This document shows, piece after piece, positions 9,476 to 61,742 of a stretch of 63,561 bases of DNA. The translations under genes were made by a program, and so were the position numbers. Within the stretch, counting starts at the first letter, position 1; the number at the start of each line of letters is the position of its first letter. The notes under the pieces are model-generated. The model saw only the letters and a program-made list of their open reading frames with translations. It was not told the origin of the DNA and did no database searches. Source of the stretch: Nanobdellati archaeon (lineage in GTDB: Archaea > EX4484-52 > GLR71); assembly GCA_019429005.1 (NCBI GenBank), contig JAHYJR010000004.1, forward strand, positions 77,700-141,260, given 5' to 3'.

Positions 9476-10402
9476 TTAAATTAAAAGCTTCCCATCTTTC
9501 ATTATTACCTTATCATCAGCATAGATTGTTGGTTTGAAAAGTATAGAATCATAATGAATATCAGAATAGACTTTTCCACCAAAAGCGGTACTATTACCAA
9601 ATGCAATATGACAAGTACCAAAAACTTTTTCATCTTGTAATATAAAACCAATTATTTCAGCTTTCATATTTATACCAATACCAAATTCTGCAATATTTCG
9701 TGCATTTTCTATAGTATCAAAAAGCTTGGAAAGTTTACAGCCTTTATCAGAGATATCCCTGGCAAGCCCCTCTTTTACTGTAATAATCGCACCCTCACTT
9801 GCAATCACGCCATTTGCATCTTTCATAATATCAACTACAATTATTCCGTTTGCTGTTGATTCTAGTGGTGCAAAAAAGACTTCTCCAGCTGGAAGATTGC
9901 CATAAAGACATTTATCTTTAAGATTATTTGTATCTACATCAATTTCAGGTCTGACATCAAAAGAAATATCTGTACCAGACGGTGTGATAACGCGTATCTG
10001 TTTGGATGACATAAGTGCATCTTTTATTGTTAAACCTAATTTATCCATATCAGATGAATCTACATCAAGAGCATCAAACATCAGTTCGTTAAACCCTGGC
10101 ATTGATGCAATCCGTGCACCATTTTCACAAGCTTTAATTCTTGCGTTTGTATGTGTCAAAGAATTAGTTGTAATCAATATTGAAATATCATGTTCAAGCA
10201 TGATTTTTGCAACCTCATCAGACGGTTCTTCACCTGAATGATTACCTATAGGCTTTTTAACAAAAATTGTGTTTTCAGATAATTTTTTTGCAGCTTCAAA
10301 AAAGGGTTCTGCATTTTTTTCCAAATTATCATCTGTTAAAACAAGAACTTTTTCACCTTGCTTTATATCAAATACATCTTTCAAAATTTTTACCATATTC
10401 AT
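9476..10402 (-). CDS. Aminopeptidase-like protein, M29 (AmpS/COG2309) family
   Basis: A 308-residue relative of thermophilic (M29) metallo-aminopeptidases. The C-terminal catalytic-type half shows NLPAGEVFFAPLESTANG, then AEFGIGINMKAEI, and GTCHIAFGNSTAFGGKVYSDIHYD, which supply the conserved Glu/His metal-site residues. The N-terminal half is shorter than in its neighbour, the other M29 gene at 10442-11539. The two lie 39 bp apart on the same strand and probably arose by duplication. It would remove N-terminal residues from peptides in the cytoplasm. Confidence 0.8.
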   Translation of the reverse strand: MNMVKILKDVFDIKQGEKVLVLTDDNLEKNAEPFFEAAKKLSENTIFVKKPIGNHSGEEPSDEVAKIMLEHDISILITTNSLTHTNARIKACENGARIASMPGFNELMFDALDVDSSDMDKLGLTIKDALMSSKQIRVITPSGTDISFDVRPEIDVDTNNLKDKCLYGNLPAGEVFFAPLESTANGIIVVDIMKDANGVIASEGAIITVKEGLARDISDKGCKLSKLFDTIENARNIAEFGIGINMKAEIIGFILQDEKVFGTCHIAFGNSTAFGGKVYSDIHYDSILFKPTIYADDKVIMKDGKLLI

Positions 10403-10441
10403 TTAAATCAACTTAATAATTATTCAACAAGCACGCAACAA

Positions 10442-11539
10442 TCACTCAATAAATTTACCATCAACTATTACAGGTTTTCCATCCACTTCAAGTAAAGAAC
10501 CTTTAGACATTGTCTTGAAAAAATCCCAATGTATTGTAGACTCATTTTTACCACCAAAAAGGGTATTGTCACCAATAGCAATATGTATAGTCCCTTTAAT
10601 TTTCTCATCAACAATAGTAAGACCGCCTGTTGATTCTGCATTTGGATTTGTACCTATACCAAGCTCACCAATATTAAGCTTATCTCCTGTAGCATTTTTA
10701 ATCACATCTTCAAAAGCATCTTGACCCTTATCAATCTTATACTCTACAACTTTACCATCTTTAAACTTGAACCAAACACCTTCAACTTGCTTTCCATAAT
10801 GCCATAGACTTGGAAGATCAAAATAGATTTCGCCGTTAGCAGAATTCTCAATAGGTGCAAAAAATAATTCGCCATCTGGCATATTTATAAAACCCATCTT
10901 TTCATGTTCCAAAATAGCACAACCATTCATACATTCTCGACCTTTTACGGAAAACTCAAGATTTGTCTTATCTCCAATAATTCGTATATGATTAGCATTT
11001 TTGAATTTTTTTGCTAAAGTTTCATTATATTTATATAACGCCTCATAATCAATATCAAAAGAATTCCAGAAAACCCTTTTAAGTTTTTCAAAAGTAATTC
11101 CTAACGATTTTGCGATATTTTCAGTAGGATACCCCATAAGAAGTATCTTAAGATCTTTTTTTATGAGTCTTTTCTCTTCAAAATCACGTATAGGTTTCAT
11201 TGTTTTTCTCATAACTTGAATTTTATCTTGAGGTAACCTACTAGCAAGAACTGGATTGGATTCATCTATGATTATCTCAACATCCATATCTTTAGATAAA
11301 ATATCATTGAGTTTAGGTTTATCTTTAATATAGTTTACATCTATATACGTATACGTTTTTAATGAAAGTTCACTACTGTTATAAAAAATAGTTGGTTGTG
11401 CACCAATAATTGAACATTCATATGCAAGCATTTGAGCAAATTTAATTGATTCTGGCCCAGAACGTATAACAACAAGATCTTTTCTCTTGACTGAAAGATT
11501 AACGTTTATTATTTTTTTTGCGATTGACTCAAGATTCAT
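10442..11539 (-). CDS. Aminopeptidase, M29 family
   Basis: A 365-residue M29-type aminopeptidase of full family length. Motifs include NMPDGELFFAPIENSANGEI, IGELGIGTNPNAE and GTIHIAIGDNTLFGG followed by STIHWD. These glutamates, histidines and the aspartate form the two-metal site of the family. The start at ATG 11539 is supported by MNLESIAKKIINV, a usual opening. It is the upstream gene of a tandem pair with 9476-10402; the second copy may have diverged in specificity. Confidence 0.85.
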   Translation of the reverse strand: MNLESIAKKIINVNLSVKRKDLVVIRSGPESIKFAQMLAYECSIIGAQPTIFYNSSELSLKTYTYIDVNYIKDKPKLNDILSKDMDVEIIIDESNPVLASRLPQDKIQVMRKTMKPIRDFEEKRLIKKDLKILLMGYPTENIAKSLGITFEKLKRVFWNSFDIDYEALYKYNETLAKKFKNANHIRIIGDKTNLEFSVKGRECMNGCAILEHEKMGFINMPDGELFFAPIENSANGEIYFDLPSLWHYGKQVEGVWFKFKDGKVVEYKIDKGQDAFEDVIKNATGDKLNIGELGIGTNPNAESTGGLTIVDEKIKGTIHIAIGDNTLFGGKNESTIHWDFFKTMSKGSLLEVDGKPVIVDGKFIE

Positions 11540-20253: not shown

Positions 20254-20467
20254 AAAATCACATAATATTTAAAAATAGGGTTTATAACATTACTTTTATT
20301 TACCTTGAAGATTTATAAGTTTATTAGGGGGTGGGGTTGTTTGAGATGTCTATTTTTCAGGGGTTGTATTTTTAGTATTTAGATAAAAAATATACTAGCA
20401 ATTGAATAATACCGTATAAAATGCCAAAATAACAGTATTATAGGGATAACATTCTGTATAATAACTT
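20254..20467. other. Intergenic region between argS and the cassette array
   Basis: AT-rich spacer that must contain the argS promoter and, at its right end, the left boundary of the cassette array. No integrase gene is present, and no canonical attI sequence is recognisable apart from the AACTTG that precedes the crossover point. A purine-rich GGGGGTGGGG tract lies at about 20328-20337. Confidence 0.5.
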
Positions 20468-20476
20468 GTTATCTGT
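20468..20476 (+). other. Left boundary of cassette 1 (attI-like or secondary insertion point)
   Basis: The sequence AACTTG|TTATCTGT contains the GTTA core. Its nine bases GTTATCTGT are the exact reverse complement of the R'' box ACAGATAAC of the attC at the far end of the same cassette (21519-21527). This marks where cassette 1 joined the chromosome. Whether the left flank is a true attI or a secondary site cannot be decided here. Confidence 0.75.
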
Positions 20477-20478
20477 AA

Positions 20479-20521
20479 TTCAGAAATCAGCCTTAGAATT
20501 TTCGAAGAGGGGCAAATCTTA
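20479..20521. repeat. Left arms of two nested inverted repeats flanking the Nif3 cassette gene
   Basis: Two 14-bp arms, TTCAGAAATCAGCC (20479-20492) and AGGGGCAAATCTTA (20508-20521), are perfectly complementary to GGCTGATTTCTGAA (21451-21464) and TAAGATTTGCCCCT (21399-21412). The outer pair and inner pair are properly nested around the gene. The inner right arm includes the TAA stop codon of the gene. Confidence 0.92.
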
Positions 20522-20549
20522 TAAAGTAACAAGTTTATCTAATTTTATT

Positions 20550-21401
20550 ATGAAAGCAACCCAACTATACCAACACCTTGAGAAAGATTTTATCACTCCA
20601 GAAATGAATGATGGATGGGCGCAGTATATGGATTCTGTTGCTGATTTTCTTAGTGAGAACTTTAAGAAAAGATCTATGGGATTAGTTTGCGATTTTGCAA
20701 CAGAAATCAATAAAATATATACTGCTGTTTTTCCATCAAGAGAAGTTATGCAAAGAATTTTAGATGATGGAACTCAAGATGCAATGCTTTTTGTTCATCA
20801 CCCATCGATATGGGATATAAGAAAAGCTCCAGAAGTTTTTCAGCAAATGGACAGAGATTTATTACAACAATTTAGAGATAGAAAAATCTCTATTTATAAC
20901 CTTCATGTGCCTTTAGATAATTTTGGAGAATATTCAACAAGTGTAACTTTAGCAAAAGCATTAGGGATAAAACCTGAAAAATCTTTTGCTCCTTACTTTG
21001 GCTCTATGTGTGGAGTTTTTGGAAAAACTGATGTGGTAACAGTTCAAGATTTAAGAAAAAGATTCCAAGATGCTGTTGGACACGAAGTTAATTTGTATAA
21101 TTATGGAGATAATGAAATCAAAGATAGAACTGTTGCTGTTATTGCTGGTGGCGGAAACGATGCAGATATGCTTGAAGAAATCGCCAAAGCAGGAGTTAAT
21201 ACTTTTGTAACTGGAATTACTGTTAAAAATGATCACTCCAAAAAGGCACATGATTTTGCTGAAAAACATAGAATAAATGTCCTTGGCGGAACTCATTATT
21301 CTACTGAAAGATTTGCTTGTATATCGATGGTTGATTATTTTAAGAAAGTTGGGTTACCTTCTGAGTTTATTGAAGATAAACCTGTAATGGAAGATATGTA
21401 A
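20550..21401 (+). CDS. Nif3/DUF34-like metal-binding protein (cassette 1 cargo)
   Basis: About 283 residues related to the Nif3 (NGG1-interacting factor 3, DUF34) superfamily. Seen: MLFVHHPSIWD near residue 85, NLHVPLDNF, a long middle insertion, AVIAGGGNDADMLEEIAKAGVNTFVTGI, and the C-terminal GGTHYSTERFACISM, whose histidine and glutamate would complete the di-metal site. The family is widespread but its biochemical role is poorly defined. The frame is open from TTG 20466, but that codon lies in the recombination boundary. ATG 20550 gives a sensible start. The gene occupies cassette 1, reads towards its attC, and is flanked by nested inverted repeats. Confidence 0.75.
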   Translation: MKATQLYQHLEKDFITPEMNDGWAQYMDSVADFLSENFKKRSMGLVCDFATEINKIYTAVFPSREVMQRILDDGTQDAMLFVHHPSIWDIRKAPEVFQQMDRDLLQQFRDRKISIYNLHVPLDNFGEYSTSVTLAKALGIKPEKSFAPYFGSMCGVFGKTDVVTVQDLRKRFQDAVGHEVNLYNYGDNEIKDRTVAVIAGGGNDADMLEEIAKAGVNTFVTGITVKNDHSKKAHDFAEKHRINVLGGTHYSTERFACISMVDYFKKVGLPSEFIEDKPVMEDM

Positions 21402-21464
21402 GATTTGCCCCTTTAATTCTTTTATTTTATGTATCGCTTCGCTCTTGGACGGCTGATTTCTGAA
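21399..21464. repeat. Right arms of the nested inverted repeats of cassette 1
   Basis: TAAGATTTGCCCCT (21399-21412) and GGCTGATTTCTGAA (21451-21464) are perfect complements of the arms at 20508-20521 and 20479-20492. Between this and the attC lies a short hairpin (AAAATCC-TTC-GGATTTT, about 21468-21484). Confidence 0.92.
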
Positions 21465-21518
21465 CTCAAAATCCTTCGGATTTTGCCACGCTGCGCTCTC
21501 CTCTTTTCAGTCGTCGGG

Positions 21519-21614
21519 ACAGATAACAGGGCTTAAACGGAAAATGCCTCAGCTCGGCATTTTCCCAAATTTCTCCCTGCGGTCGCAACTTCGTTTAAGC
21601 CCAATGTTATACGC
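21519..21614 (+). other. attC1 recombination site (end of cassette 1)
   Basis: R'' box ACAGATAAC (21519-21527), one spacer base, L'' GGGCTTAAACG (21529-21539), then L' CGTTTAAGCCC (21592-21602), spacer AAT, and R' GTTATACG (21606-21613). L'' and L' are an 11-bp perfect inverted repeat, and the spacers are unequal (1 versus 3 nt), giving the strand asymmetry attC sites need. The central loop contains a secondary stem AAAATGCC/GGCATTTT (21541-21563). The crossover lies between G21606 and T21607. Confidence 0.88.
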
Positions 21615-21645
21615 AATTAAATTTTCACTAGTCTAAATCTCATTT

Positions 21646-21680
21646 TTCTTTTAAAAAAAGAAACAAAAGAGAGGGAGTCC
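21646..21680. repeat. Cassette-border palindrome followed by a G-rich tract
   Basis: A TTCTTTTAAAAAAAGAA-type imperfect palindrome followed by a purine tract (CAAAAGAGAGGGAGTCC). Near copies lie at about 24128, 24374, 28722 and 31089, always just inside a cassette end or start. It may be a terminator-like hairpin common to the donor pool of cassettes. Nothing coding is seen in the remaining gap up to 21802. Confidence 0.6.
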
Positions 21681-21837
21681 AGGTGCTACGCACATATTGC
21701 CTTTTACTTCGTAAAAGAAATCTATTAAGAGGGGGCTTTTAAGATAGTCTTTTTCTACGAAAAAGAAATTTTTCGGAATAGCTTTAGAAAACTTATTAAA
21801 TGTGAACCTTTTTATACTTAATATGGGAAGTTTAATT

Positions 21838-23199
21838 ATGGGTGAAATAAAAGAGGGATCTGCTTTTGGTAATTTTAATCTAAATGGTTCAAATGGTGAT
21901 TTATATAAATTATTAAATAAATTAGGAAGATTACCTGAAAATTTTGATGAAAAACCATTATTAAATCTTCTTAATCATCAAAGTGACAAAGTAAGATTTT
22001 TGGTTGTAAAAAATCTAGCAAAATTATCAAAATTTTCTTTAATTGAAACCTATATCAATCTAATTAATAATGATGAAAGTTCAACAGTTAGAAGAGAAGC
22101 GGCATCAGCAATAGGTAGACTAAGAAATTCAAATGCTAAACAAACAATGTTTAATTTACTTAATGATAATGATCCTGAAGTAGTTTTACAATCAATTAGA
22201 GGGTTACTTGTTTTTAAGAAAGATGAAGATGTTAAAAATAAGTTATTTAGTCTAAAAGAACACCCTAATGAAATAATCCAAGAAGTAGTAAAAAAAGAAT
22301 TCAAATTAAATAATAATCCTATAAGCAAAGATGAAGATCATACAAAATCTCCCAATTTTATGAAAAATGCAGTAATTCAAGGAGATGTTAGAGAAACACT
22401 TAAACTTGTTCCAGATGAATCAGTTCATTTAACTTTTACTTCTCCGCCTTATTATAATGCAAGAGATTATTCAACATATAAAAGTTATCAAGAATACTTA
22501 GATTTTTTAGAATCTGTTTTTAAGGAAGTTCATAGGGTTACTAAAGAGGGGAGATTTTTCTTGTTAAATACTTCCCCTATAATTATTCCAAGGGTGGGTA
22601 GACAATATTCTAGTAAAAGATATCCAATCCCTTATGATATCCACCCACTTTTAATAAAAATGGGTTGGGAATTTATTGATGATATTGTATGGGCAAAACC
22701 TGAGGCAAGTGCAAAAAATAGAAATGCTGGTTTTCTCCAACACAGAAAACCATTAGGATATAAACCAAATGCTTGTAGTGAATGTGTTATGGTTTATAGA
22801 AAAAAAACGGATAAACTAATTGATTGGAATATAAAACAATATGATAAAAAAATTGTAGAAGAGAGTAAAATAAAAGGAGATTATGAATCTTCAAATATAT
22901 GGAATATTGATCCTACATTTGATAAAACACATAGTGCTGTTTTCCCAATCGAACTATGCAATAAAGTTATTAAATTTTATTCATTTAAAGGAGATTTAGT
23001 TTTTGATCCATTCGCCGGAAGCGGAACTTTTGGCAAATCGGCTATAAATTTAAACAGATTTTTTTTCTTAACCGAACAAAAGAAACAATATGTAGACAGA
23101 ATAAAAGAAAATATGAGTCAAAGTAAAATATTTTCAGATAATAATTTAAAACCAAAATTTTTAAACATAAACGAATTTGAAAAGGTAATAAAAAAATGA
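21838..23199 (+). CDS. DNA methyltransferase with N-terminal HEAT-like repeats (probable N4-cytosine, CfrBI type)
   Basis: About 453 residues from ATG 21838; ATGs at 21802 and 21823 are also in frame. The first 165 residues are HEAT/ARM-like helical repeats (HQSDKVRFLVVKNLAKLS, STVRREAASAIGRLRN, DPEVVLQSIRGLL). The catalytic part is of beta class, with motif IV TSPPYYNARDYSTY preceding the SAM-binding motif DPFAGSGTFGKSAI at the C terminus. TSPPY is typical of N4-cytosine enzymes. Its stop overlaps the ATG of the endonuclease gene (ATGA at 23196-23199). It protects host DNA against the partner nuclease. The HEAT extension on a modification enzyme is unusual. Confidence 0.82.
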   Translation: MGEIKEGSAFGNFNLNGSNGDLYKLLNKLGRLPENFDEKPLLNLLNHQSDKVRFLVVKNLAKLSKFSLIETYINLINNDESSTVRREAASAIGRLRNSNAKQTMFNLLNDNDPEVVLQSIRGLLVFKKDEDVKNKLFSLKEHPNEIIQEVVKKEFKLNNNPISKDEDHTKSPNFMKNAVIQGDVRETLKLVPDESVHLTFTSPPYYNARDYSTYKSYQEYLDFLESVFKEVHRVTKEGRFFLLNTSPIIIPRVGRQYSSKRYPIPYDIHPLLIKMGWEFIDDIVWAKPEASAKNRNAGFLQHRKPLGYKPNACSECVMVYRKKTDKLIDWNIKQYDKKIVEESKIKGDYESSNIWNIDPTFDKTHSAVFPIELCNKVIKFYSFKGDLVFDPFAGSGTFGKSAINLNRFFFLTEQKKQYVDRIKENMSQSKIFSDNNLKPKFLNINEFEKVIKK

Positions 23200-24119
23200 C
23201 AATAACATTAACTGAAGCAGTAGCAAAAAATATCATTACTAAATTGATAAATGGAGAAGATTATAGAATAGAAATAGTTACACTAATTAATGCCGAATTT
23301 TTACAGTATACTGTTGATTTCTTTAAAAAAATTGTAGAAGCAAAACTAAGAAACAAAGACATAACTGTTGATTGGTACAAAAAAGAATTTTTAGATGAAA
23401 ATCTTACATCAGAAGAAATAGCAATAAATTCAGGTTTAAACAAGAAAACTATATCAAATATGTATAATTCTGCAACTAAAGAGATTGTAATTGAAGCCTC
23501 AAAAGAACACTATGAAGAACTATATCAAGCCATACAAACTTTAGTAGATGGAGAAAATGAACTTAACATAACGCTCACTTTAAAATTTAAAGGAGTTAGT
23601 GTTGATTTAAATGTTAGTGAAAGTTTGATTGTAATAAATACTTTAGCTGTAAAACGAGCAGCATTAAGAGGCGGACTATGGAGTACCGCGGGTAAAAGAG
23701 TTGAAAAACCTTTAATGCAAACTCTATGTAAAATTTATAATGTTAGTGATGAGAATTACAAGGTTAAAATAAAAAGTAAAATCAAAGGTAAAGTTGATTT
23801 TGTAAGAGAAATCGATTTCTATTTAGTTAATAACGGACAAAACCACAAATGCGAAGTTAAACTAATGGGCAAAGGAAACCCTGAAAGTGCAGACGCAGTA
23901 ATAGCAAGGGATAGTAAGGTTTTTGTTGCCGATAAACTTTCCGATACAAATAAAAAACAATTAGACAGCCTTAAAGTTGAATGGGTTGAAATGCGAGATC
24001 ATGATGGATACAAGAGGTTTAAAAAAATCCTTGAAAACTTAAAAATACCTCATACAGATTTTAATGGAAATATTAACGAAAAATTAAAAGAAATTTACAG
24101 TGAATTATTTGAACAATAA
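23196..24119 (+). CDS. Restriction endonuclease, CfrBI-like
   Basis: A 307-residue protein that I match, from memory of the family, to CfrBI-type endonucleases (recognition CCWWGG). Notable segments are EEIAINSGLNKKTISNMYN (residues about 70-90), VKRAALRGGLWSTAGKRVEKPL, and a probable PD-(D/E)XK core: REIDFYLV then HKCEVKLMG near residues 205-230. It overlaps the methyltransferase by four bases, the usual type II arrangement for coupled expression. Recognition site and family call would need a profile search. Confidence 0.68.
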   Translation: MTITLTEAVAKNIITKLINGEDYRIEIVTLINAEFLQYTVDFFKKIVEAKLRNKDITVDWYKKEFLDENLTSEEIAINSGLNKKTISNMYNSATKEIVIEASKEHYEELYQAIQTLVDGENELNITLTLKFKGVSVDLNVSESLIVINTLAVKRAALRGGLWSTAGKRVEKPLMQTLCKIYNVSDENYKVKIKSKIKGKVDFVREIDFYLVNNGQNHKCEVKLMGKGNPESADAVIARDSKVFVADKLSDTNKKQLDSLKVEWVEMRDHDGYKRFKKILENLKIPHTDFNGNINEKLKEIYSELFEQ

Positions 24120-24264
24120 AAGCCCCTCTATTTTCTTTTTTTAGAAAAAAGAAACAAAAAATCTGGACTCCCCCTCGTCCTTCGGACATATTGGCTCCTT
24201 TCAGTCGATATTTATTAACGTGAAAATTTAACTGAGCCTTCGGCTTTTTTTCTTGCAGAAAAAA
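24120..24264. other. 3' non-coding part of cassette 2
   Basis: Holds a TTCTTTTTTTAGAAAAAAGAA palindrome, a CGTCCTTCGGACATAT hairpin, and at 24230-24265 a 36-bp segment (AACTGAGCCTTCGGC onward) that is repeated exactly at 29742-29777 at the end of cassette 4. No gene seen. Confidence 0.7.
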
Positions 24265-24353
24265 CGTATAACAAGGATTTAGAGATTCCGCCTTGCAGGC
24301 TCCATCCAAATTTTTGCTTCGCAAAAACTTCTCTAAATCCTGATGTTAGTTGC
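24265..24353 (+). other. attC2 recombination site (end of cassette 2)
   Basis: R'' CGTATAAC (24265-24272), spacer AA, L'' GGATTTAGAG (24275-24284), L' CTCTAAATCC (24331-24340), spacer TGAT, R' GTTAGTTGC (24345-24353). L''/L' is a perfect 10-bp inverted repeat. A TTTTTGC-TTC-GCAAAAA stem (24311-24327) sits in the central loop. R'' is the exact complement of the left end of cassette 2 (GTTATACG at 21606). Confidence 0.88.
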
Positions 24354-24462
24354 AATTTAGTTTAAGTTTAAAATGTTCTTTTAAAAAAAGAAGCAAAAGG
24401 GGGGAATTCCGTCCTTCGGACATATACACTCCCTACGGTCGATATTTATGTGGGCAAGAAAA
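24354..24462. other. 5' non-coding part of cassette 3
   Basis: Contains the border palindrome (GTTCTTTTAAAAAAAGAAGC, about 24373), a GGGGGG tract, and the CCTTCGGACATATACACTCC hairpin element found again near 28757-28777. The stop of the specificity gene follows at 24463. Confidence 0.65.
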
Positions 24463-25785
24463 CTAACCTAAGATAATCTTTTCTACTTCTAACTTTGCTT
24501 TTTCTAATTCTTCTTTTGTTTCTTTCTGCAATGTTTCTGCTTTTTGCATTCTTTTTTTAACTTCGTCAGCAATTTTATTCTGAACAGAAAGAGGGGGCAG
24601 AGGGATTTTTAATTTTGATAAATCTCTTGAATAAACATGAGGTTGTCCTGCTCCTTGTTGCATATTATAAACAAATTTCTGTTTTGCTTTCATAACCCAA
24701 AACAAGTAAAAAGTAGAAACATCTTTCTCGTCTAAAGATTTAATTACTGTACAATCAGAAGCGAAAATAGGATAATTGTGAAACCATACATAACCAGAAT
24801 AAGCACCAGATGCACTTACAGTTATTATATTTCCCTTATAGTTATATTTATCTATTGAATATGGACTTGATTGACCTCCTGCAATTACGGGATACTCTCC
24901 AGAAGTAATATTTTCTTTAGTAATGCTTTGACCTTTTGTTAAACTTGAAACTTCACCTAAAGTTTTTTCTTTAAATTTTTCAGAACTTGGCGTATCTTGA
25001 GGATGTGCAAAACTTATAGGGTCAATTCTGCCAATTTCAACTTCTTCAAAATTAATCGTAAAGCACATTTTATCTTCTGATTTATGAAGTTTTATTCCTA
25101 ATTCATCAAGAATATAATCGTTTATTGAATCAATAAGTTTCCGGGCTTCTGTTTCTTTATAATTTTTTGAGGAGTAAGCATTATCCATTAAAGAAACTAT
25201 TTTATTTTGAATTTCTAAAGATGGCATAGGAATTTCGATTTCTTTTAATTCTTTTACAGAAACAATATTCCTAATAGCAGAGCCATAAGCAAATTCATTC
25301 CCTTCAATTAATTTTTCGATTATATATCTAAATATCACTAAGAAATATTTAAGATTAATATTTTCGTTCAATCTAATTCTTAATAATGCTTGATTAATTA
25401 CACCTTTACGAAATTTTTCAGGAATAATAACCAATTTACCGATAGTTCCTGAACAACTCATAAGAATATCATTTTTTTGAACAGAGAAAGATTTTAATCT
25501 TTGAAAATCCCCATCAGAAATAAAATATCTTGCCCTATTTGGATTATTTTTTATCGCATTATATTGTTCATAAACTTGATAATTTTCAGGTCTATCATCT
25601 ACAAATATCTCTTTTTTTATTGAACCCCCGAAAGGCCCTCTTTTTAATTGAGCAATTTCTCCAAATTTAACTACCTTAAATTTTTTAAAATTTAAAAAAT
25701 CATCAGAACAATTCAATCTTTTATAATTACTTTCTACATCAAATCTTCCTTGTGTTTCTTCAATCAAAACTGTAAAGCATTCCAT
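24463..25785 (-). CDS. Restriction-modification specificity subunit (HsdS-like)
   Basis: A 440-residue DNA-recognition subunit with two target-recognition domains. Repeat one starts near FKVVKFGEIAQLKRGPFGG and ends with IPMPSLEIQNKIVSLMDNAYSSKN. Repeat two starts EKTLGEVSSLTKGQSITKEN and ends with IPLPPLSVQNKIADEVKKRM and a C-terminal coiled coil (ETLQKETKEELEKAKLEVEKII). It begins 2 nt after the stop of the upstream methylase-nuclease gene. It would direct that partner to a bipartite DNA sequence. It is transcribed against the direction of the cassette array. Confidence 0.88.
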   Translation of the reverse strand: MECFTVLIEETQGRFDVESNYKRLNCSDDFLNFKKFKVVKFGEIAQLKRGPFGGSIKKEIFVDDRPENYQVYEQYNAIKNNPNRARYFISDGDFQRLKSFSVQKNDILMSCSGTIGKLVIIPEKFRKGVINQALLRIRLNENINLKYFLVIFRYIIEKLIEGNEFAYGSAIRNIVSVKELKEIEIPMPSLEIQNKIVSLMDNAYSSKNYKETEARKLIDSINDYILDELGIKLHKSEDKMCFTINFEEVEIGRIDPISFAHPQDTPSSEKFKEKTLGEVSSLTKGQSITKENITSGEYPVIAGGQSSPYSIDKYNYKGNIITVSASGAYSGYVWFHNYPIFASDCTVIKSLDEKDVSTFYLFWVMKAKQKFVYNMQQGAGQPHVYSRDLSKLKIPLPPLSVQNKIADEVKKRMQKAETLQKETKEELEKAKLEVEKIILG

Positions 25786-25787
25786 CT

Positions 25788-27599
25788 TTAACAGCCCTCG
25801 TAAGATGTTGGTTTTTTCTCAAACTTTCTATACTCGAGCAAAATTTTATCTAAATCGTTTATTGGGTCTTTTCTTCCTGTCGCATCATAACCAATATGTT
25901 TCGCAATCGCCATAAAAATAGGATAATTGCCTAATCTCTCGTCTTTCTTTTTCTTACGAACAAATACTAAAGATGATTTTACTCCTGCTCCAAAATGGCT
26001 AAATGCTATTTGAGGAAGTGAAACAACTGCTTCTATTTGTGCGTGTTCCATTAAGAAATCTCTAACATATTGCAAAGAACTATTTGTTAAAATTCCGTCA
26101 GGCAAAACTATTCCCATTTTACCACTGCCACTTTTCAGAAATTCTAAACATCTCTCAATAAATAAAATTTCTGTTTTTTGATTTTTACGATTTTCTCCGA
26201 GTTTGTATTTTCCTAAATAATCGTGTTCTGTTGATTTAACACTTGCCCCAAATGGTGGATTAGTTAAAATAATATCAAATTTATTTTTCCCAAAACCTTG
26301 ATGAATCTCTGAAATTTCATTCACATTTCTTAAAGAATCTGTTGAAATAACATTTGTATGCCCATCATCATGAATAATCATATTCATTTTACAAACTCTT
26401 GCGATTTGATCATTTATCTCAATTCCATAAAGTTTGTCTTTCGCAAAATCGTGCCACATTCTAAAATTTTCTTCTGGACTATCAGGAAATTCTTTATCTG
26501 CTAATTCTCTAACATAATCCATAGCATTAAGCAAAAATCCACCACTACCACAAGCAGGGTCTAAAACAAGTTTATCTTCTTCTGGCTTTAACATTTTTAC
26601 AGCAAATTGAATAACTTCACGAGGAGTAAAAAACTGCCCCATTTTTCCTTTAAAGAAATCTTCCATAAAACGCTCAAAAGCAACGCCTTTTGTATCTAAA
26701 TCTGTTTTATTAAAATTAATACTCTGTAAATGTTCAACCACACCATAAACAACTTTTGGATTTAATTTTATATCTTCTTTAAAGACTTCTGCATCTTTTG
26801 TTTTCGCATATTGATATATTTGATCCACTCTCTTAAAAACTTCCTCTGGCGTTTCATGAGTTCCAATCTGAAATTTATATGGCTCTCCTTTTTTGGTTAC
26901 AGTTCTTTCTTTTTCTTCTTGTAATTTACAAAAAAGTAATTTTGATACTTCATCAAAAGCAGCAGTTGGGCTTAATTTCCCACCTTGCCAAATAGTATCA
27001 TGTGCTTTATCTAAAACTCTAATCAAATCATCACGAGAAACAAGTTTTAAATCTTTATCCGGGTCGCCCTTGATAAATTTATATTTTGGTGCTTGTCCGT
27101 ATCGCTCTGGAATATCTGCAATAACATTTTTTTCTCTTTCTCTTTGTGTAAATCCAGAAACATCAAAAGCAGTTCGTGTAGTTCCTGCAACAACAATCGC
27201 ATATTTCGCTCTCTTGCTGTTTGCGTTTCCAAACGCTTGTTCTATTGCTTGTTTAAATTCTGCGTCTGTAATTCCATCTTTTTTACATTCAACAATCAAA
27301 TAATCTTTTCCATCTTTATCATAAACAACAATATCGGCTCTATCGTCAGGTATTCGTCGCTCAACTTTTACTTCAATATCAATATTTTCTTTAGGGTATT
27401 TTTTATCCAAAACTAACTCAACAAAATAAGAAGCCCTTACTTTTTCTTCTGGATTTGTAAATGTTGTAGAATACTCACGCTTACAAAAATAAGTTATTCT
27501 CTTTTTATCATCAGAAAGTTTAATGATTTTTTCTTTAAGCCCTCGATCAACATTTTCCATGAAAATAGTATTATTATCAATATTATTATCTTCACTCAT
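25788..27599 (-). CDS. Fused HSDR_N nuclease-N6-adenine methyltransferase (bipartite type IIB/BcgI-like RM subunit)
   Basis: 603 residues. Residues about 30-150 form a PD-(D/E)XK nuclease-like domain of the HSDR_N kind: RRIPDDRADIVVYD and DYLIVECKK carry the acidic residues and lysine, followed by AIEQAFGNANSKRAKYAIV. The rest is a gamma-class N6-adenine methylase with GQFFTPREVIQFAV, VLDPACGSGGFLLNA (SAM) and TNPPFG (catalytic). No ATP-dependent HsdR translocase is encoded in the cassette, so this with HsdS resembles two-subunit type IIB systems rather than type I. Its ATG overlaps the TGA of the small ribbon-helix-helix gene (27596-27599). Confidence 0.82.
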   Translation of the reverse strand: MSEDNNIDNNTIFMENVDRGLKEKIIKLSDDKKRITYFCKREYSTTFTNPEEKVRASYFVELVLDKKYPKENIDIEVKVERRIPDDRADIVVYDKDGKDYLIVECKKDGITDAEFKQAIEQAFGNANSKRAKYAIVVAGTTRTAFDVSGFTQREREKNVIADIPERYGQAPKYKFIKGDPDKDLKLVSRDDLIRVLDKAHDTIWQGGKLSPTAAFDEVSKLLFCKLQEEKERTVTKKGEPYKFQIGTHETPEEVFKRVDQIYQYAKTKDAEVFKEDIKLNPKVVYGVVEHLQSINFNKTDLDTKGVAFERFMEDFFKGKMGQFFTPREVIQFAVKMLKPEEDKLVLDPACGSGGFLLNAMDYVRELADKEFPDSPEENFRMWHDFAKDKLYGIEINDQIARVCKMNMIIHDDGHTNVISTDSLRNVNEISEIHQGFGKNKFDIILTNPPFGASVKSTEHDYLGKYKLGENRKNQKTEILFIERCLEFLKSGSGKMGIVLPDGILTNSSLQYVRDFLMEHAQIEAVVSLPQIAFSHFGAGVKSSLVFVRKKKKDERLGNYPIFMAIAKHIGYDATGRKDPINDLDKILLEYRKFEKKPTSYEGC

Positions 27600-27739
27600 T
27601 TTCTCGCCCCCTTTTTCATCTGTTCTTCCATCATAATTTCTACTTGGCGAGAAACTAATAAACCTTTCTTCTTGCAGAAATCTCTATATTTATCATAAAT
27701 TTTTGAATCAACACGCAAAGTTATATTTTTTGAATCCAT
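27596..27739 (-). CDS. Small ribbon-helix-helix protein
   Basis: A 47-residue protein found by reading the gap between two genes. It opens MDSKNITLRVDSKIYDKY, a basic beta strand followed by helices (REVE-like VSRQVEIMMEEQMKK), the layout of MetJ/Arc-type repressors. It starts 1 nt after the stop of the DUF5655 gene and its TGA overlaps the ATG of the methylase-nuclease gene. By position it is a likely autoregulator of the restriction operon, similar in role to control proteins of RM systems; that role is inferred. Confidence 0.75.
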   Translation of the reverse strand: MDSKNITLRVDSKIYDKYRDFCKKKGLLVSRQVEIMMEEQMKKGARK

Positions 27740-27740
27740 T

Positions 27741-28655
27741 TTAACCCCTATTAATTTTTTCGTAACTATTTTTAATAAGTGACATCACAAGAGGCAGTTC
27801 TTCTATTTTTGAGATGGTTACTTCATAATCCAATGCTCCCCAATGTCCAATCTTTGAAACATCTCTTACAATATCATTATTCAAATCATTTTTTGATAAG
27901 TTAAGATATAATTTTATTTTTTGCTTTTTGAAAACAAAATACGCAAAATTTATATTACTTTTAAAAGCGATATATTGCTTTTTTGGAAGAATCTCAATAT
28001 TATCATCAATTGCTAAAATCTGATTTTTTAATTCGTCATATAATGATTTTGTTTCATCTGAAGAATTATTTAAATGGTCTTCTTCAGTATAAACCTTTAC
28101 TTCACTACTTACTTTTTGAACAACACTACTTTTTTTACTGATTTTGTTTATTGATTCAGAATTTTCATGTGACCTTAATCTTGTATATTGAATTAAATCG
28201 TTTTCATATTTTGATATTTCCCATAATTCAATAGGTAAATCCTTAAAATTTATTGCTTGTTGTTGATATTTTGAAAAAGCAGGAGAAACAAATAAAACTC
28301 TTGATTGCGACCAATCAACATTTTCTCTTTTCAAATTCCTATCGCAATTCTCATTATATTCCAAAATAAAATCTGCTTTGTTATTAAGCATTAAAGAAAG
28401 ATAAGCATAACCTTGATCTATTACACTAAAATTTTTATCTCGCTTATATTCAATAATCACAAAACTATTATTTTCATTATCGTAAGCAAGAGTATCTATT
28501 CTTAGTCCATTTAAAGAAAATTCTGATTTAACTATTTGTAATCCAAATATATCGTTTAAGTTTTTCTCTGTTAAATCTTGAATTTCTTTTTCCAACTTAA
28601 AAGATAATTGTTTAATTCTGTTGAGTTTATTAGTTGAGTTTTTGAAGATTGCCAT
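27741..28655 (-). CDS. DUF91-like nuclease with C-terminal DUF5655 domain
   Basis: 304 residues. The N-terminal half (residues 25-130) carries a PD-(D/E)XK-like core, LRIDTLAYDNENNSFVIIEY followed by KRD, and resembles NucS/DUF91-type and 'predicted transport protein' families. The C-terminal 110 residues match DUF5655 (SLYDELKNQILAIDDNIEIL to SKIEELPLVMSLIKNSYEKI). It is the first gene of the reverse-oriented operon in cassette 3, just ahead of the RHH protein and the restriction subunits. It may add a nuclease or regulatory activity to the system; the function is not established. Confidence 0.7.
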   Translation of the reverse strand: MAIFKNSTNKLNRIKQLSFKLEKEIQDLTEKNLNDIFGLQIVKSEFSLNGLRIDTLAYDNENNSFVIIEYKRDKNFSVIDQGYAYLSLMLNNKADFILEYNENCDRNLKRENVDWSQSRVLFVSPAFSKYQQQAINFKDLPIELWEISKYENDLIQYTRLRSHENSESINKISKKSSVVQKVSSEVKVYTEEDHLNNSSDETKSLYDELKNQILAIDDNIEILPKKQYIAFKSNINFAYFVFKKQKIKLYLNLSKNDLNNDIVRDVSKIGHWGALDYEVTISKIEELPLVMSLIKNSYEKINRG

Positions 28656-28871
28656 CTTACTAATACAAATGAAATCAAATATTTATAAATGTATCGCTAA
28701 AACCGTTTTCTTGCCCTAATGTTCTTTTAGAAAAAGAACTAAAAGCCCCCCTCTCGTCCTTCGGACATATACACTCGCTACGCTCGAAATTTATCTGAAC
28801 CTAAATACAACTCTTCGGGATTTTTTCACTTCGTGAAAAATCGTTGCACTATCCCTCGGTCACTTCGTGAC
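28656..28871. other. 3' non-coding part of cassette 3
   Basis: Contains the presumed promoter of the reverse operon close to 28655, the border palindrome GTTCTTTTAGAAAAAGAAC (about 28720), CGTCCTTCGGACATATACAC and CACTTCGTGA hairpins. G+C content is visibly higher than in the flanking archaeal genes. No gene seen. Confidence 0.65.
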
Positions 28872-28964
28872 GCAACTAACAGGGCTTAAAGGGTTCGCTC
28901 GTTGCACTTCGCTCTCTCAAATTTTTTGCTACGCAAAAAACGTCCCTTGCCCGATGTTAAGTGC
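28872..28964 (+). other. attC3 recombination site (end of cassette 3)
   Basis: R'' GCAACTAAC (28872-28880), spacer A, L'' GGGCTTAAAGGG (28882-28893), L' CCCTTGCCC (28944-28952), spacer GAT, R' GTTAAGTGC (28956-28964). L''/L' pair as GGGC/GCCC and AAGGG/CCCTT with TTA bulged on one side. The central loop holds a TTTTTTGC-TAC-GCAAAAAA stem. R'' is the exact complement of the left end of cassette 3 (GTTAGTTGC at 24345). Confidence 0.88.
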
Positions 28965-50279: not shown

Positions 50280-50534
50280 TTAAGGAAATAATCTATTTTT
50301 AATCGCTTTGAAAAGGCTATAATTCTCATTATCATCAATCAATTCGGATGTATAATTTATAGAACTTCGATATTGAGAATAAGACATAATACCAGATTCA
50401 GACATTGTTCATGAATCATTTCTAAGATTTAAAATAAAGAAGGATGTATAAAATATTACATAAATCATTATTATGACAGAAATAAAACCCCCGACATAAT
50501 TATATTTTGTATATTTTTTCAATAATCGTTTCAT
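50280..50534 (-). CDS. Tiny membrane protein coupled to the giant protein, possibly interrupted by TGA
   Basis: ATG 50534 overlaps the TGA stop of the giant gene (ATGA). The first 41 codons read MKRLLKKYTKYNYVGGFISV and a hydrophobic helix to LRNDS, then TGA at 50409-50411. The same frame then stays open for 42 more codons (TMSESGIMSYSQYRSS to KAIKNRLFP) to TAA at 50280-50282. It is either a 41-residue single-span protein, or an 84-codon gene broken by a nonsense mutation. TGA is a normal stop elsewhere here, so readthrough is not assumed. Confidence 0.5.
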
Positions 50535-53500
50535 GCTAATCCCTTATATACAAAAAGAGCACCTATAAGTCCTATTAATAATATTCCTATATTACTTAAA
50601 CCTGGAGTTGCCTTAATAATACCAACATTATAAATCGGCGATATGACACGCACTATTGTAGTGTCATATGCATACCCTCCAGTTATTGATGAAGTCCCTT
50701 CAACTTTTACAGTATAAGTTCCAACTTCACCACCAATTACATCTATAATATGCATTTTCTCGGAATAAGAACGCACTTGCAATCGTGTATTTAGCCTATC
50801 TATACCACTTTTCTTATCTTTAAACCATGCCCAATACTTCATTTTAGGATCACTATTTTGAATCGTTAATGCAATATCGTCCGTAATTGAAAGATTGCTC
50901 CTGACAACAATGAACAATGATTCTGTTGAACCTAACTCAATCTCATACAATGAACTATTGAACTCAATTATAGGATCTGTTCTAAATAGACATATCTCAT
51001 GAAGACATTCAAGAGGTGAAACACAATCCGCATCACTTTCACACGCACAATTATCAGGCATACTTTCAACCCAATCAGTACTGTTCCAATAATTTTTAAT
51101 ATTATCGACAATAATTTCATCACAGACTATAGGTTCAAATATTGTTGTTGCAACAAAACTAAATGAATTGTCACAATTAGGTCCGGTGTAATTACCTTCA
51201 GCTGTACCGACACAATGCCATTTGCCATCAGTTGCTACCCAAGCATCATTTGAATCACAGCAACCTTTCGTATCATCCCAATAACCAGATGACAAACAAC
51301 AGCAAGCCTCATTTGAGATATCTGAATTTGTTATCCATTCTGAATTAGCATTATCTATAGCACTACAGTATCCTTGGAAAACACCAGTATTATCACAACT
51401 AGATTCACCATCATCTTTCATATTATTAATATTACCTTCAGCAGCAAAACAGAAATTTTCTGACACACAATCTGTCTCAAGATCACAGCAAGCATCACTC
51501 ATACCCCAATCAGTCTGTTTTGTATCTTTAGTCTCATTAGAAATATAGACTTCCCATCTCCAACCTATACCAAGATTGAAACGATCTATATTATTATCAA
51601 AATCATATTGGTTCCATGTTTTCTCATCTTGACAACATACATCATTATAAGGAAGACTATCCATCTGATCTCGACCTTCACTTGACCCGGTATTATCCCA
51701 CCAATATTTGCCTTGTATATTAGCATAAGGATTAGCTGACGAAGATATATTCTGTTTTACAGTCATACCCAATTCATCTGACCAGAAAGACCAAGGTTCA
51801 GTACCTATTGCACTTGTAGTATTACCGACACGGCAAATATTGAAATCAAGAGCTTTACGTTTGTTAGCTTCATCAACATCATACCAAACGTTACCATAAC
51901 AGTACTCATCAAATGAGTCATTATTAATATCACCTGTGAAATTCTCATCATAACAAGTGTTATTAAATACGCAATCTGTAGGTGCATCACAGCATGCATC
52001 TGGTCCCGTCTGATTAATTGCAGAATCCATAAATATACTGTTACAAATGTCTAATTCAACTCTTCTGAATCCCATAGGTAAAGTTGCATTATAATCAGAT
52101 GTACAATTTATATACCATTCCATATCAGGTCCATCATCTTCACAACAAAGACTTGGTATAAACATACTTGTATTTCTACCATCTGGACTGTCAGGGAACA
52201 TAGTTTCACTTACACCCTCAGTTGAACCAGTACCATCCCAATAACCATTACATAATTCTTCAGACTCATCCTGATCATGCCATACTCCACCACGCTGAGG
52301 TGTCCAAGTGAGCGTATTATAATCAAAGAGAGTCTCAAACTTTTCTTCACCAGATATATCTGAACCATTACAATACTCATCATCAGCATGACCTGCATCA
52401 AAGATAGACCAATCACCATTCCAAGTTGTCCAATTAATATAATTACGACCTGAATCTGCATAAGTTCCATTAGGAACACATTGACCGCTCGGCAATACAC
52501 AATCTGTTGGATTATCACAACAAGATTCCATCTGATAGAATCCCGTACCATTTCTGAAATGACCACGATTGAAAAATTCTACTGGGTCTCCAGCCGCATT
52601 GAAATCATCTTCACAACAAAGTCCAGTTGTTATGTTGAAGTCCCAATCATCTGTCGCCTCTTGACAACCATAAGCCCATTCAGTACAGTTTGAACCATTA
52701 AGCCAGATTGCAACGGAATAAAATGGCACAGCCAAACCAAATGGATTTGAAAGGTTTAATGGATGGTTTATATTTACACCACAGGCTAAATCACTTTCAT
52801 CTTGGTCATGCCACACACCACCACGTTTTGGTGTCCAATTGAAGTCCATGTCAGGATAACCATCATCATCAGTATCTAGAACAGTACCAGTATCCCAAGG
52901 TGCACAATATTCAAGGTCAAATGCACCTACATCAGAATCGTGATTATTTCTTGTACCAACATCATAATAACCATATTCAGGAACACAAGCATTATCTGGA
53001 GCAACACAATCTGAACTACTATTACAACAAGATTCTACAATATTGAAAAGACCAGTTCCATTTGCAAGCACATATTGAGTACCATTCCAAAGCGTTGCAT
53101 GATGCTCACGATTGAAAAACTCATTCTCTTCATCTTCACAGCAAAGACCTGTATATATATCATCATCAAAATCATCTGTTCCATTTATACACATCTGTGG
53201 ATAATCAGTACAATTCTGGGGTGTAAGCCATATTGCCACATCATAATATTCAGCGATAACTGCAACAGGATGTGCTTCAAGAGGATGTGTTGTATTTATA
53301 CCACAATAATTATCAGATTCATCTTGATCATGCCAGGTTCCACCACGCTGAGGTGTCCAGTTCCAGAAATCTGTAAGATATCCATCACCATCAAGATCTA
53401 TCGTGTCACCAGGATCTGTACCATTGCAGTATTCCCTATCTGTCGTACCATTATCATTGAAAACGTGATTAGGTGCACCACTATCATAATAAAGACCACT

Positions 53501-56500
53501 TATATTACTATCTTCAACACAATAACCGCTCGAAGTTACACAATCAGTCATCTGATCACAACATGATTCAGACGGATTATAACCCGTACCATTATTGAAA
53601 TGCGCATAATTGTAAAATTCTGCCTGCTCAGTCAGACCAAGTCCAACCGTACGATAATCATCTTCACAACACATGACCCCTGTTATTGACTTGTTTGTGC
53701 CGTTTAATTCAAGTGTAAAATCATTTATACCTTCAACACAACGACCCGGATTAGCAATACAATCACCTATCCAGAATGAAAGATTATAGTCTGGATAATA
53801 ATCAATAACACCATCTTCATTCATATCATATTCATATTTTGGATGTATTATAGGACTTCCACAATAAGCATCACCTTCATCCTGATCTCGCCATACACCA
53901 CCACGTTGAGGACTCCAATTGAAAGCCAATTCTTCAATACCATCACCATCAGCATCTATAAGCGTATCAGATTCCCAACCTGCACAAATCTCAAGATCTG
54001 TTGAACCATTATCATAAGCCCAGTTAGATTGAGAACCAACATCATAATATGTGAAATTAGCCATACATCGCATATCATTTGTAACACAATCTGAAGTCAA
54101 ATTACAACATGCTTCACTACTATTTGTAAATCCAGTACCATTTGGTGAATGATGCTCTATATTATAGAACTCATTACTCTCATCTTCACAACATAGACCT
54201 GTATATATATCATCATCAAAATCATCTGTTCCATTTATACACATCTGTGGATAATCAGTACAATTCTCGGGTGTAAGCCAGATTGCTACATCATAAAATG
54301 GCCGAAGTGCGACAACAGGATGATTCTCAAGAGGATGTGTCGTATTTATACCGCAATATAAATCAGATTCATCCTGATCATGCCATACACCACCACGCTG
54401 ATAAGTCTCATTCCATATAGAATCCACACCAGAATAACGGTCTTCAATTTCACTATCATCTTTAAGAACAGATTGTGCAAAGTTACCATCACAGAATTCC
54501 ATATCATCTGTACCATTATCATCATAACTATATGACCCATCAGGCAATAGTCCAGAATCACCATAATCAGATGAATTTATACATAAATATTGACTACTAC
54601 CATTAAAGGTTAAAATACAGGATGTCCTGTTGAAACAACAGGATTCTGCAACCCAAATAGGATCTGATGAACCTGTACCATTCTCATGATGTTCACGATT
54701 ATACCATTCTTTCTTTTCACCTGTAGCAATATCAACATCATCTTCACAACAAGCCCCGATTGAATTTGGAGAATCTGTAAATACCTGATCACATAAACCA
54801 CCTATTGAACAATCTAACCAAAACATATAATTGTAATCTATTGAACTTGACAGTTTCCTTATATCAATATCACCTTCAACAAGCCATGATGAAGCAGGAT
54901 GTTCTGGATTTTTATTTTCTTTTGTTGTACATGCATTTTCATCACAATCCTTATCTTTCCAAGTTCCACCACGCTGAGGATATCTACCTTTAGCATTATC
55001 ACCATCACAGAATTCAAGATCTTCACCACCTGCATCTACAAGTATGCCATTTATATAATAAGAACCATCAAATTCGAGTGCAAGACCAGTGATATTTCCA
55101 AGATCTATCTCAGTTCCATTTGGAACACAGGTCCCGTTTGGAAGTACGCAATCGGTTGGATCATTACAACAGGAAATAACACCAAAATCCCATCCAGTAC
55201 CACCACAATCATCATGAAGCTCACGATTCAAGAATTCTATACTTTCACCGGCTGCATTCTTATCATCTTCACAACAAAGACCAGTTGAGATGTTAAAATC
55301 AAAGTCATCAATAGCTTCATTACATTGACCTGAACTATCTGTAAGATATGGCGATAACCAACCCATGTCAGTACAGTTTGAACCTGCTATCCAAATAGAT
55401 TTATTATTAAACTCGTCATCAGGATGTTCTATAGATGCACTACAATATACAGCTGCTTCATCCTGGTCATGCCAGACACCACCACGCTGGACATTCCAAT
55501 CGAAATCCATATCAGGCCAACCATCGCCATCAATATCAAAAGTTGTTCCATTTTCCCATGGTGCGCAGAATTCCTCATCAAATAAACCAGCATCATGCTC
55601 ATGATTATTCCTGATACCAACATCATAGAAAGTATAGGCTGCAACACAACTACCATCTGGAGCCACACAATCATCACTCCTGTTACAGCAAGATTCCATG
55701 TTAAAACTAAGACCCGTACCATTCACAAGTTCGTATAGTCCGAGAGTTGCATTCCAGATAGTTGCATGATGCTCATAATTAAAGAACTCATTTTCTTCAT
55801 CTTCACAACATAGACCTGTATATATATCATCATCAAAATCATCTGTTCCATTTATACACATCTGTGGATAATCAGTACAATTCTCGGGTGTAAGCCAGAT
55901 TGCTACATCATAAAATGGCCGAAGTGCGACAACAGGATGATTCTCAAGAGGGTGTGTAGTATTTATACCACAATAATTATCACTTTCATCCTGATCATGC
56001 CAAGTTCCACCACGTTGAGGTGTCCAATTCCAAAATGTATCTAGATAACCATCATTATCAAGGTCAATCTCATCACCAGGATCTGTACCATTGCAGTATT
56101 CCTTATCAGTTGTACCATTATCATTAAAGATGTGGTCGGGTGCACCTGAATCATAATAAACCCCTGTAATAGTACTAGATTCAACACAATTACCGCTTGA
56201 AGTCACACAATCTGACATCTGATCACAACAGGATTCATTTGGATTATTACCAGTACCATTCCTATAATGACCATAATTGAAAAACTCTTTTCCAATCTCA
56301 TCTTCACAACACATCTCTCCCGTACTAGTCTTATTTGTACCATTCATCTCATTTGTAAAATCATTTATACCTTCAACACAACGGCCAGGTACTAAGTTAC
56401 AGTTATCTATCCAGAAAGAACGATTGTATTCTGGATAATAATCAATATCACCATCTAAATTCATATCCCATTCCCATTTAGGATGTATTACAGGACTACC

Positions 56501-61654: not shown

Positions 61655-61742
61655 CAAATTACACCTAATTTTATTAATTACACATTTATATACATTAACT
61701 CTTCATTTTATACAATATTTTATATCTTTATTTCATTTGTTT

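Follow-up and report, generated by a model that had tools for sequence, protein, structure and literature searches.

A stretch of 63,561 nt from the genome of a Nanobdellati archaeon (GCA_019429005.1, contig JAHYJR010000004.1, positions 77,700-141,260 of the forward strand; referred to here as the window, with positions counted from its first base) contains an array of three gene cassettes, carrying in order a NIF3-like gene, a methylase with a CfrBI-like endonuclease, and genes resembling type I restriction-modification systems. We think it probable that this is an integron array standing at its attI site after loss of the integrase, and that it represents an archaeal lineage in which a Xer-like recombinase lacking the I2 insert of integron integrases (IntI) would move cassettes at G|TT. 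All of the evidence is inference from the sequences of draft genomes, and the host genome of the window is itself a draft (1.08 Mb in 15 contigs, 93.6% complete). The elements read directly from these sequences are the attC anatomy, the R'/R'' rule, the attI homology, units of recombinase, attI and cassette, the missing insert, the rarity of an extrahelical base, and a second inverted repeat at the cassette ends. Four features were absent from an earlier sequence-only reading of the window: the identity of the left border as an attI, the missing integrase, the departure from canonical integrons, and the second inverted repeat.

Cassette boundaries and the R'/R'' boxes

That reading had proposed that the left end of each cassette is an exact inverted copy of the R'' box at its own right end, and when the sequence is reread the match is exact, at the same positions, in all three cassettes. 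In cassette 1, GTTATCTGT at 20468 (20468-20476) pairs with ACAGATAAC at 21519; in cassette 2, GTTATACG at 21606 (21606-21613) pairs with CGTATAAC at 24265; and in cassette 3, GTTAGTTGC at 24345 (24345-24353) pairs with GCAACTAAC at 28872, the left boxes all being assigned to the plus strand by sequence match. The boxes were also said to be cassette-specific, and they do differ among the three cassettes, with none of them frequent in the window; no box 8-mer has more than two occurrences in either orientation across the 63.6 kb, so a common palindrome can be dismissed. With GTT/AAC fixed and five bases variable, the probability of a chance match is approximately 0.0018 per cassette and 6e-9 for the three. 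Cuts at G|TT (20468/20469, 21606/21607, 24345/24346 and 28956/28957) set the cassettes at 1138, 2739 and 4611 bp, the lengths previously put forward. The last R' box, GTTAAGTG at 28956, has no partner R'' before 61585, and the array therefore ends there.

The three window sites have the anatomy of attC sites, R''-A-L''-loop-L'-spacer-R', with the GTT crossover triplet. The distance between attC1 and attC2 is 2.7 kb, within the 4 kb by which two or more attC sites are recognised as an array, and that between attC2 and attC3 is 4.6 kb, beyond this default limit. A search against Rfam returned a tRNA as its sole match. A covariance model built from the three window sites detected sites of this kind in 32 of the 101 archaeal genomes searched, and a second model, trained on the matches of the first and with E-values that are rough, found them in 25 of the 34 genomes of the same order; in the window's own genome only the three window sites pass the second model. 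We examined the box rule in 54 consecutive attC pairs (two from the window, two from a spirochaete and the remainder from related archaea), and all five variable box positions match in 30 of them, compared with a mean of 2.7 and a maximum of 11 in 20,000 permutations. The rule is a known consequence of the insertion of cassette circles at G|TT; R' within an array is contributed by the adjacent cassette, and it is established that its variable 4 bp are for this reason not required to be complementary to R'' (PMC5371416). The attC anatomy, the similar arrays across the order and the box rule within those arrays together support the earlier interpretation of these units as integron cassettes.

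A draft genome in 15 contigs might include a bacterial contaminant binned with archaeal DNA, and the array could have such an origin. We regard this as very improbable, as it is contradicted by the presence on the same 141-kb contig of Pus10 with an archaeal THUMP domain, and by the occurrence of such sites in 25 of the 34 genomes of the order.

The attI border and the recombinases of related archaea

The left border of the array (20416-20468, plus strand) is an attI left half with the crossover between 20468 and 20469, and contains TGTATAATAACTTGTTA at 20455-20471; it is assigned from blastn homology to loci L155 and L158 of relatives and from a shared core. Positions 20416-20483 align with the 3' end of a recombinase gene and the adjoining attI in the same-family genome G003 (L155, 7257-7324; blastn, 76%, E 1e-7), positions 20429-20480 align with the same-family genome G002, and the core common to the window, G003 and G002 borders is TATAATAACTTG|TTA. 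The window's 93.6% complete genome has no match to PF00589 or to the array-type recombinases, no remnant of a recombinase gene was found beside the window attI, and a search for synteny between the left flank and the recombinase loci found none. From the attI homology and the lack of a recombinase match we infer that attI has been kept and the integrase gene is gone; if the gene has moved, it may instead lie in the 6% of the genome that is unassembled.

The relatives provide the context for this border. At eight loci a recombinase gene lies 46-163 nt from an attI and the first cassette has matching boxes, the match being nine of nine positions at L053, L056, L058, L059, L176 and L183 and eight of nine at L054 and L057. 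The scan for such units resolved none for L055 and L158; at L055 a weaker box match was spotted by eye. The enzymes have conserved catalytic motifs and the fold of tyrosine recombinases, and they lack the additional I2 domain, an IntI-specific insert of approximately 40 residues between the KDR and HxLRH motifs. The spacing of these motifs is 54-61 residues in the relatives' enzymes (56-59 in intact array-linked genes), and 81 and 100 in the IntI controls with readable motifs. The best sequence match of the L053 enzyme is an archaeal Xer (4a8e, E 4e-46), and its alignment with IntI4 falls into two pieces, skipping IntI4 residues 200-241. The predicted fold (predicted local distance difference test score 84.5) shows no helix from residue 173 to residue 190, and among structures it matches IntI4 first and XerA next. 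In a quick tree, the array-linked genes stand apart from IntI and outside the branch that contains the other archaeal Xer-like genes. None of the 101 archaeal genomes searched for IntI has a match over the IntI cut-off.

We note several further recombinase loci. The contigs of L153, L154, L155, L156, L159, L073 and L081, which carry genes related to the array recombinases, end within 0.7 kb on the expected attI side, as might happen if assembly failed at arrays. At L060, L061 and L180, attC sites have broken tyrosine recombinase genes nearby; these belong to another branch and end in HVAN-DIKKLA-LL. Locus L088, in Spirochaetes bacterium GWE1_32_154, combines an insert-less recombinase with three nearby attC sites that have no extrahelical base, and another contig of that genome encodes a canonical IntI. 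Among 80 named recombinase relatives kept in the search, attC sites are found only beside this spirochaete gene, and we do not count the locus as support because its genome also has a true IntI.

The attC stem and a second inverted repeat

Both attC1 (21519-21613, plus strand) and attC2 (24264-24353, plus strand) have perfectly paired L''/L' sequences, GGGCTTAAAC and AGGATTTAGA respectively, with no extrahelical base. In attC3 (28872-28964, plus strand), which includes the terminal R' box GTTAAGTGC at 28956 and the end of the array, L' is altered, and the site is too changed for an extrahelical base to be judged. An extrahelical base in L''/L' is missing from 44 of the 56 well-fitted sites of relatives, and two of these 56 have one in L'. 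In a Vibrio-type control array all 27 sites have a base in L'', at nearly the same fit even though the fit penalises such a base; this control is mainly one superintegron, as the plasmid IntI arrays offer few sites, picked by eye. The first extrahelical base has been described as absolutely conserved, and IntI no longer recombines attC with attC when this base is lost (PMC2727003).

These observations bear on a simpler account, in which the arrays are ordinary clusters of attC sites lacking integron-integrases (CALINs), moved in trans by a canonical IntI, and the adjoining Xer-like genes are unrelated passengers. In the survey of Ghaly et al. (2022; PMC9668308), most reported archaeal integrons are CALINs and eight of the nine archaeal attC sites tested are used by IntI1, so a true IntI from outside the sampled genomes could act on such sites in trans; the spirochaete of L088, too, has its insert-less gene near attC sites and a canonical IntI at another place in its genome. 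We nevertheless consider this account unlikely, as none of the 101 archaeal genomes has a match over the IntI cut-off, the eight attI sites that match their first cassettes lie 46-163 nt from insert-less genes, and the base on which IntI depends for attC x attC recombination is missing from most of the attC sites.

Most cassettes have at their ends another cassette-specific inverted repeat, the second repeat. It is approximately 13 bp long (mostly 11-17 nt) and starts exactly at cassette nt 12; its right arm is immediately followed by CTY and stops 38-76 nt short of the R'' end. In cassette 1 the left arm TTCAGAAATCAGCC (20479-20492, plus strand) pairs with 21451-21464 (plus strand), which is followed by CTC and the 3' module (CTCAAAAT... 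to the R'' end, 21465-21527, plus strand); a third inverted repeat is nested within, its left arm AGGGGCAAATCTTA at 20508-20521 (plus strand) having its partner at 21399-21412. In cassette 2 the left arm TTAAATTTTCAC (21617-21628, plus strand) pairs with 24220-24231 (plus strand), followed by CTG. The best-arm score exceeds 99% of the null in 43 of 50 cassettes (43 of the 48 from archaea, neither of the two from the spirochaete). The match fraction is at least 0.83 over positions 1-13 and reaches background by about position 18. In the 39 strong cases, 11 of 507 arm positions are mismatched, position 1 is always T and the positions from 3 onward use all four bases. A grammar scan of twenty contigs outside the definition set gave six matches at offset 11, five of them then followed by CT, and no CT-followed match at any other offset; none was found at offset 11 in 0.97 Mb of bacterial loci. 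None of the 26 Vibrio-type cassettes has the second repeat. When the joined ends of cassettes 1 and 2 are folded as they would be in a circle, L, R and the second repeat form one branched hairpin.

The second repeat may serve as a third stem in the excised circle, or it may be a scar left when the cassette was born. In the mechanism that we propose, the insert-less recombinases would act on these attI and attC sites and the cassettes would leave as circles, in which R'/R'' and the second repeat of about 13 bp would pair to form one long branched hairpin around attC; this hairpin would substitute for the recognition features that are absent. The near-perfect pairing would be explained if a stem in the circle were under selection. 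Copying or repair upon the joining of a gene body to an attC module would in turn explain the exact outer and ragged inner border of the repeat, and it is quite conceivable, if somewhat short of an even chance, that the repeat has no role in recombination and is simply a scar of such joining, for instance where one end is copied by fold-back. Four cassettes have 3' modules that are 89-93% alike over 67-73 nt, yet their repeats and bodies differ, and therefore the repeat travels with the body; near-identical modules with unrelated repeats and bodies are what a scar would leave, as both arms change together, and the apparently gene-less cassette described below consists of a module and a hairpin. 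Set against the scar are the 11 mismatches in 507 positions, which would require recent birth or repair everywhere, and the finding that the arms are matched at least as well as the R boxes. The inverted repeat that bounds each body also brings to mind a transposon family with terminal inverted repeats. This we reject as highly improbable because the repeats are cassette-specific and not family-wide; the shared parts are the attC modules, and no transposase is present among the genes found in the window cassettes.

This apparently gene-less cassette occupies the stretch 86-197 nt upstream of the recombinase start at L053, where it is the first cassette at attI. It comprises a left box, a 10-nt arm, a loop of approximately 17 nt, the opposite arm, a CTTC module and an attC site.

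Besides the possible action of IntI in trans, several observations weigh against an insert-less integron lineage. The recombinase gene at L176 is interrupted by a stop, and many recombinases of the order have no nearby attC match, though several of their contigs stop on the array side. Ten of the 56 well-fitted sites of relatives do have an extrahelical base in L'', and cassette 3 of the window, whose 3' module (CTCTTCGGG... to the R'' end) occupies 28811-28880 (plus strand), has no clear second repeat, its score not being above the null. The key branches of the tree are only moderately supported (83 and 94) and it is unrooted, so that it fits loss of the insert and its primitive absence alike.

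Cassette cargo and comparison with known integrons

Cassette 1 carries a DUF34/NIF3-like gene (20466-21401, plus strand; PF01784, E 8e-29), whose open reading frame opens at 20466, with an in-frame ATG at 20550 as the likelier start. Cassette 2 contains a gene coding for HEAT repeats and an N4/N6 DNA methylase (21802-23199, plus strand; PF01555, E 3e-38, and PF13646), followed by one for a CfrBI-like restriction endonuclease (23196-24119, plus strand; PF09516, E 3e-22). The genes of cassette 3, all on the minus strand, code for a type I specificity subunit resembling HsdS (24463-25785; PF01420, E 1.5e-38), an HSDR_N domain fused to an N-6 DNA methylase (25788-27599; PF02384, E 1e-46, and PF13588) and a DUF5655 protein (27741-28655; PF18899, E 2e-16). 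Three restriction-modification genes (24463-28655) run opposite to the cassette direction in a 4.6 kb cassette, and cassettes 2 and 3 place two complete-looking restriction-modification sets within one array. Elsewhere in the window, a single open frame of 3708 codons extends over 50531-61657 on the minus strand, and two adjacent M29-type metallopeptidase genes at 9476-11539 perhaps reflect a duplication.

The array has much in common with canonical IntI integrons of the Vibrio-type superintegron and class 1 kinds, which share the G|TT crossover, the R''-L''-loop-L'-R' sites, an attI beside the recombinase gene and cassette-specific R'/R'' boxes. It differs in that canonical IntI has the I2 insert, and in that the Vibrio-type controls have the extrahelical base throughout and lack the second repeat. 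By sequence, the closest solved relatives of the enzymes are XerA and XerC/D, likewise without the insert, and we know of no cassette arrays with attI and attC sites that these recombinases serve. In CTXphi integration, the substrate of XerCD, which also lacks I2, is a folded single-strand site that has no extrahelical bases (PMC4792948); CTXphi differs in being a phage that uses host enzymes and has no cassette arrays.

The archaeal integrons and CALINs described in PMC9668308 resemble the window array in that attC arrays occur in archaeal metagenome-assembled genomes, mostly without a detected intI, and that DNA-modification and restriction genes are common cargo. The archaeal IntIs described there carry the additional domain, whereas the enzymes of the relatives studied here do not. 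Detection in that work was by IntegronFinder, which would probably have missed insert-less enzymes. No mention of the second inverted repeat was found in that portion of the paper, and we found no published description of it elsewhere, though most subscription journals were outside the search; our statements on prior knowledge rest on PMC9668308, PMC2727003, PMC4792948, PMC7790495, PMC5371416, PMC8352920 and PMC8946536.

Single-strand recombination by IntI is thought to have been gained through the I2 helix, and intermediates are reported to be lacking (PMC7790495). Natural arrays that mostly lack both I2 and the extrahelical base would allow a direct test of this model. Cassette formation is largely unexplained (PMC5371416), and the exact, cassette-specific repeat, whose position is constant in most cassettes, offers a concrete clue to it. 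A more specific and rather doubtful proposal is that of a separate archaeal integron lineage that dispenses with the I2 helix and, for the most part, with extrahelical bases, and that uses extra cassette-specific stems which are themselves scars of body-module joining; if true, these stems would expose the mechanism of cassette birth.
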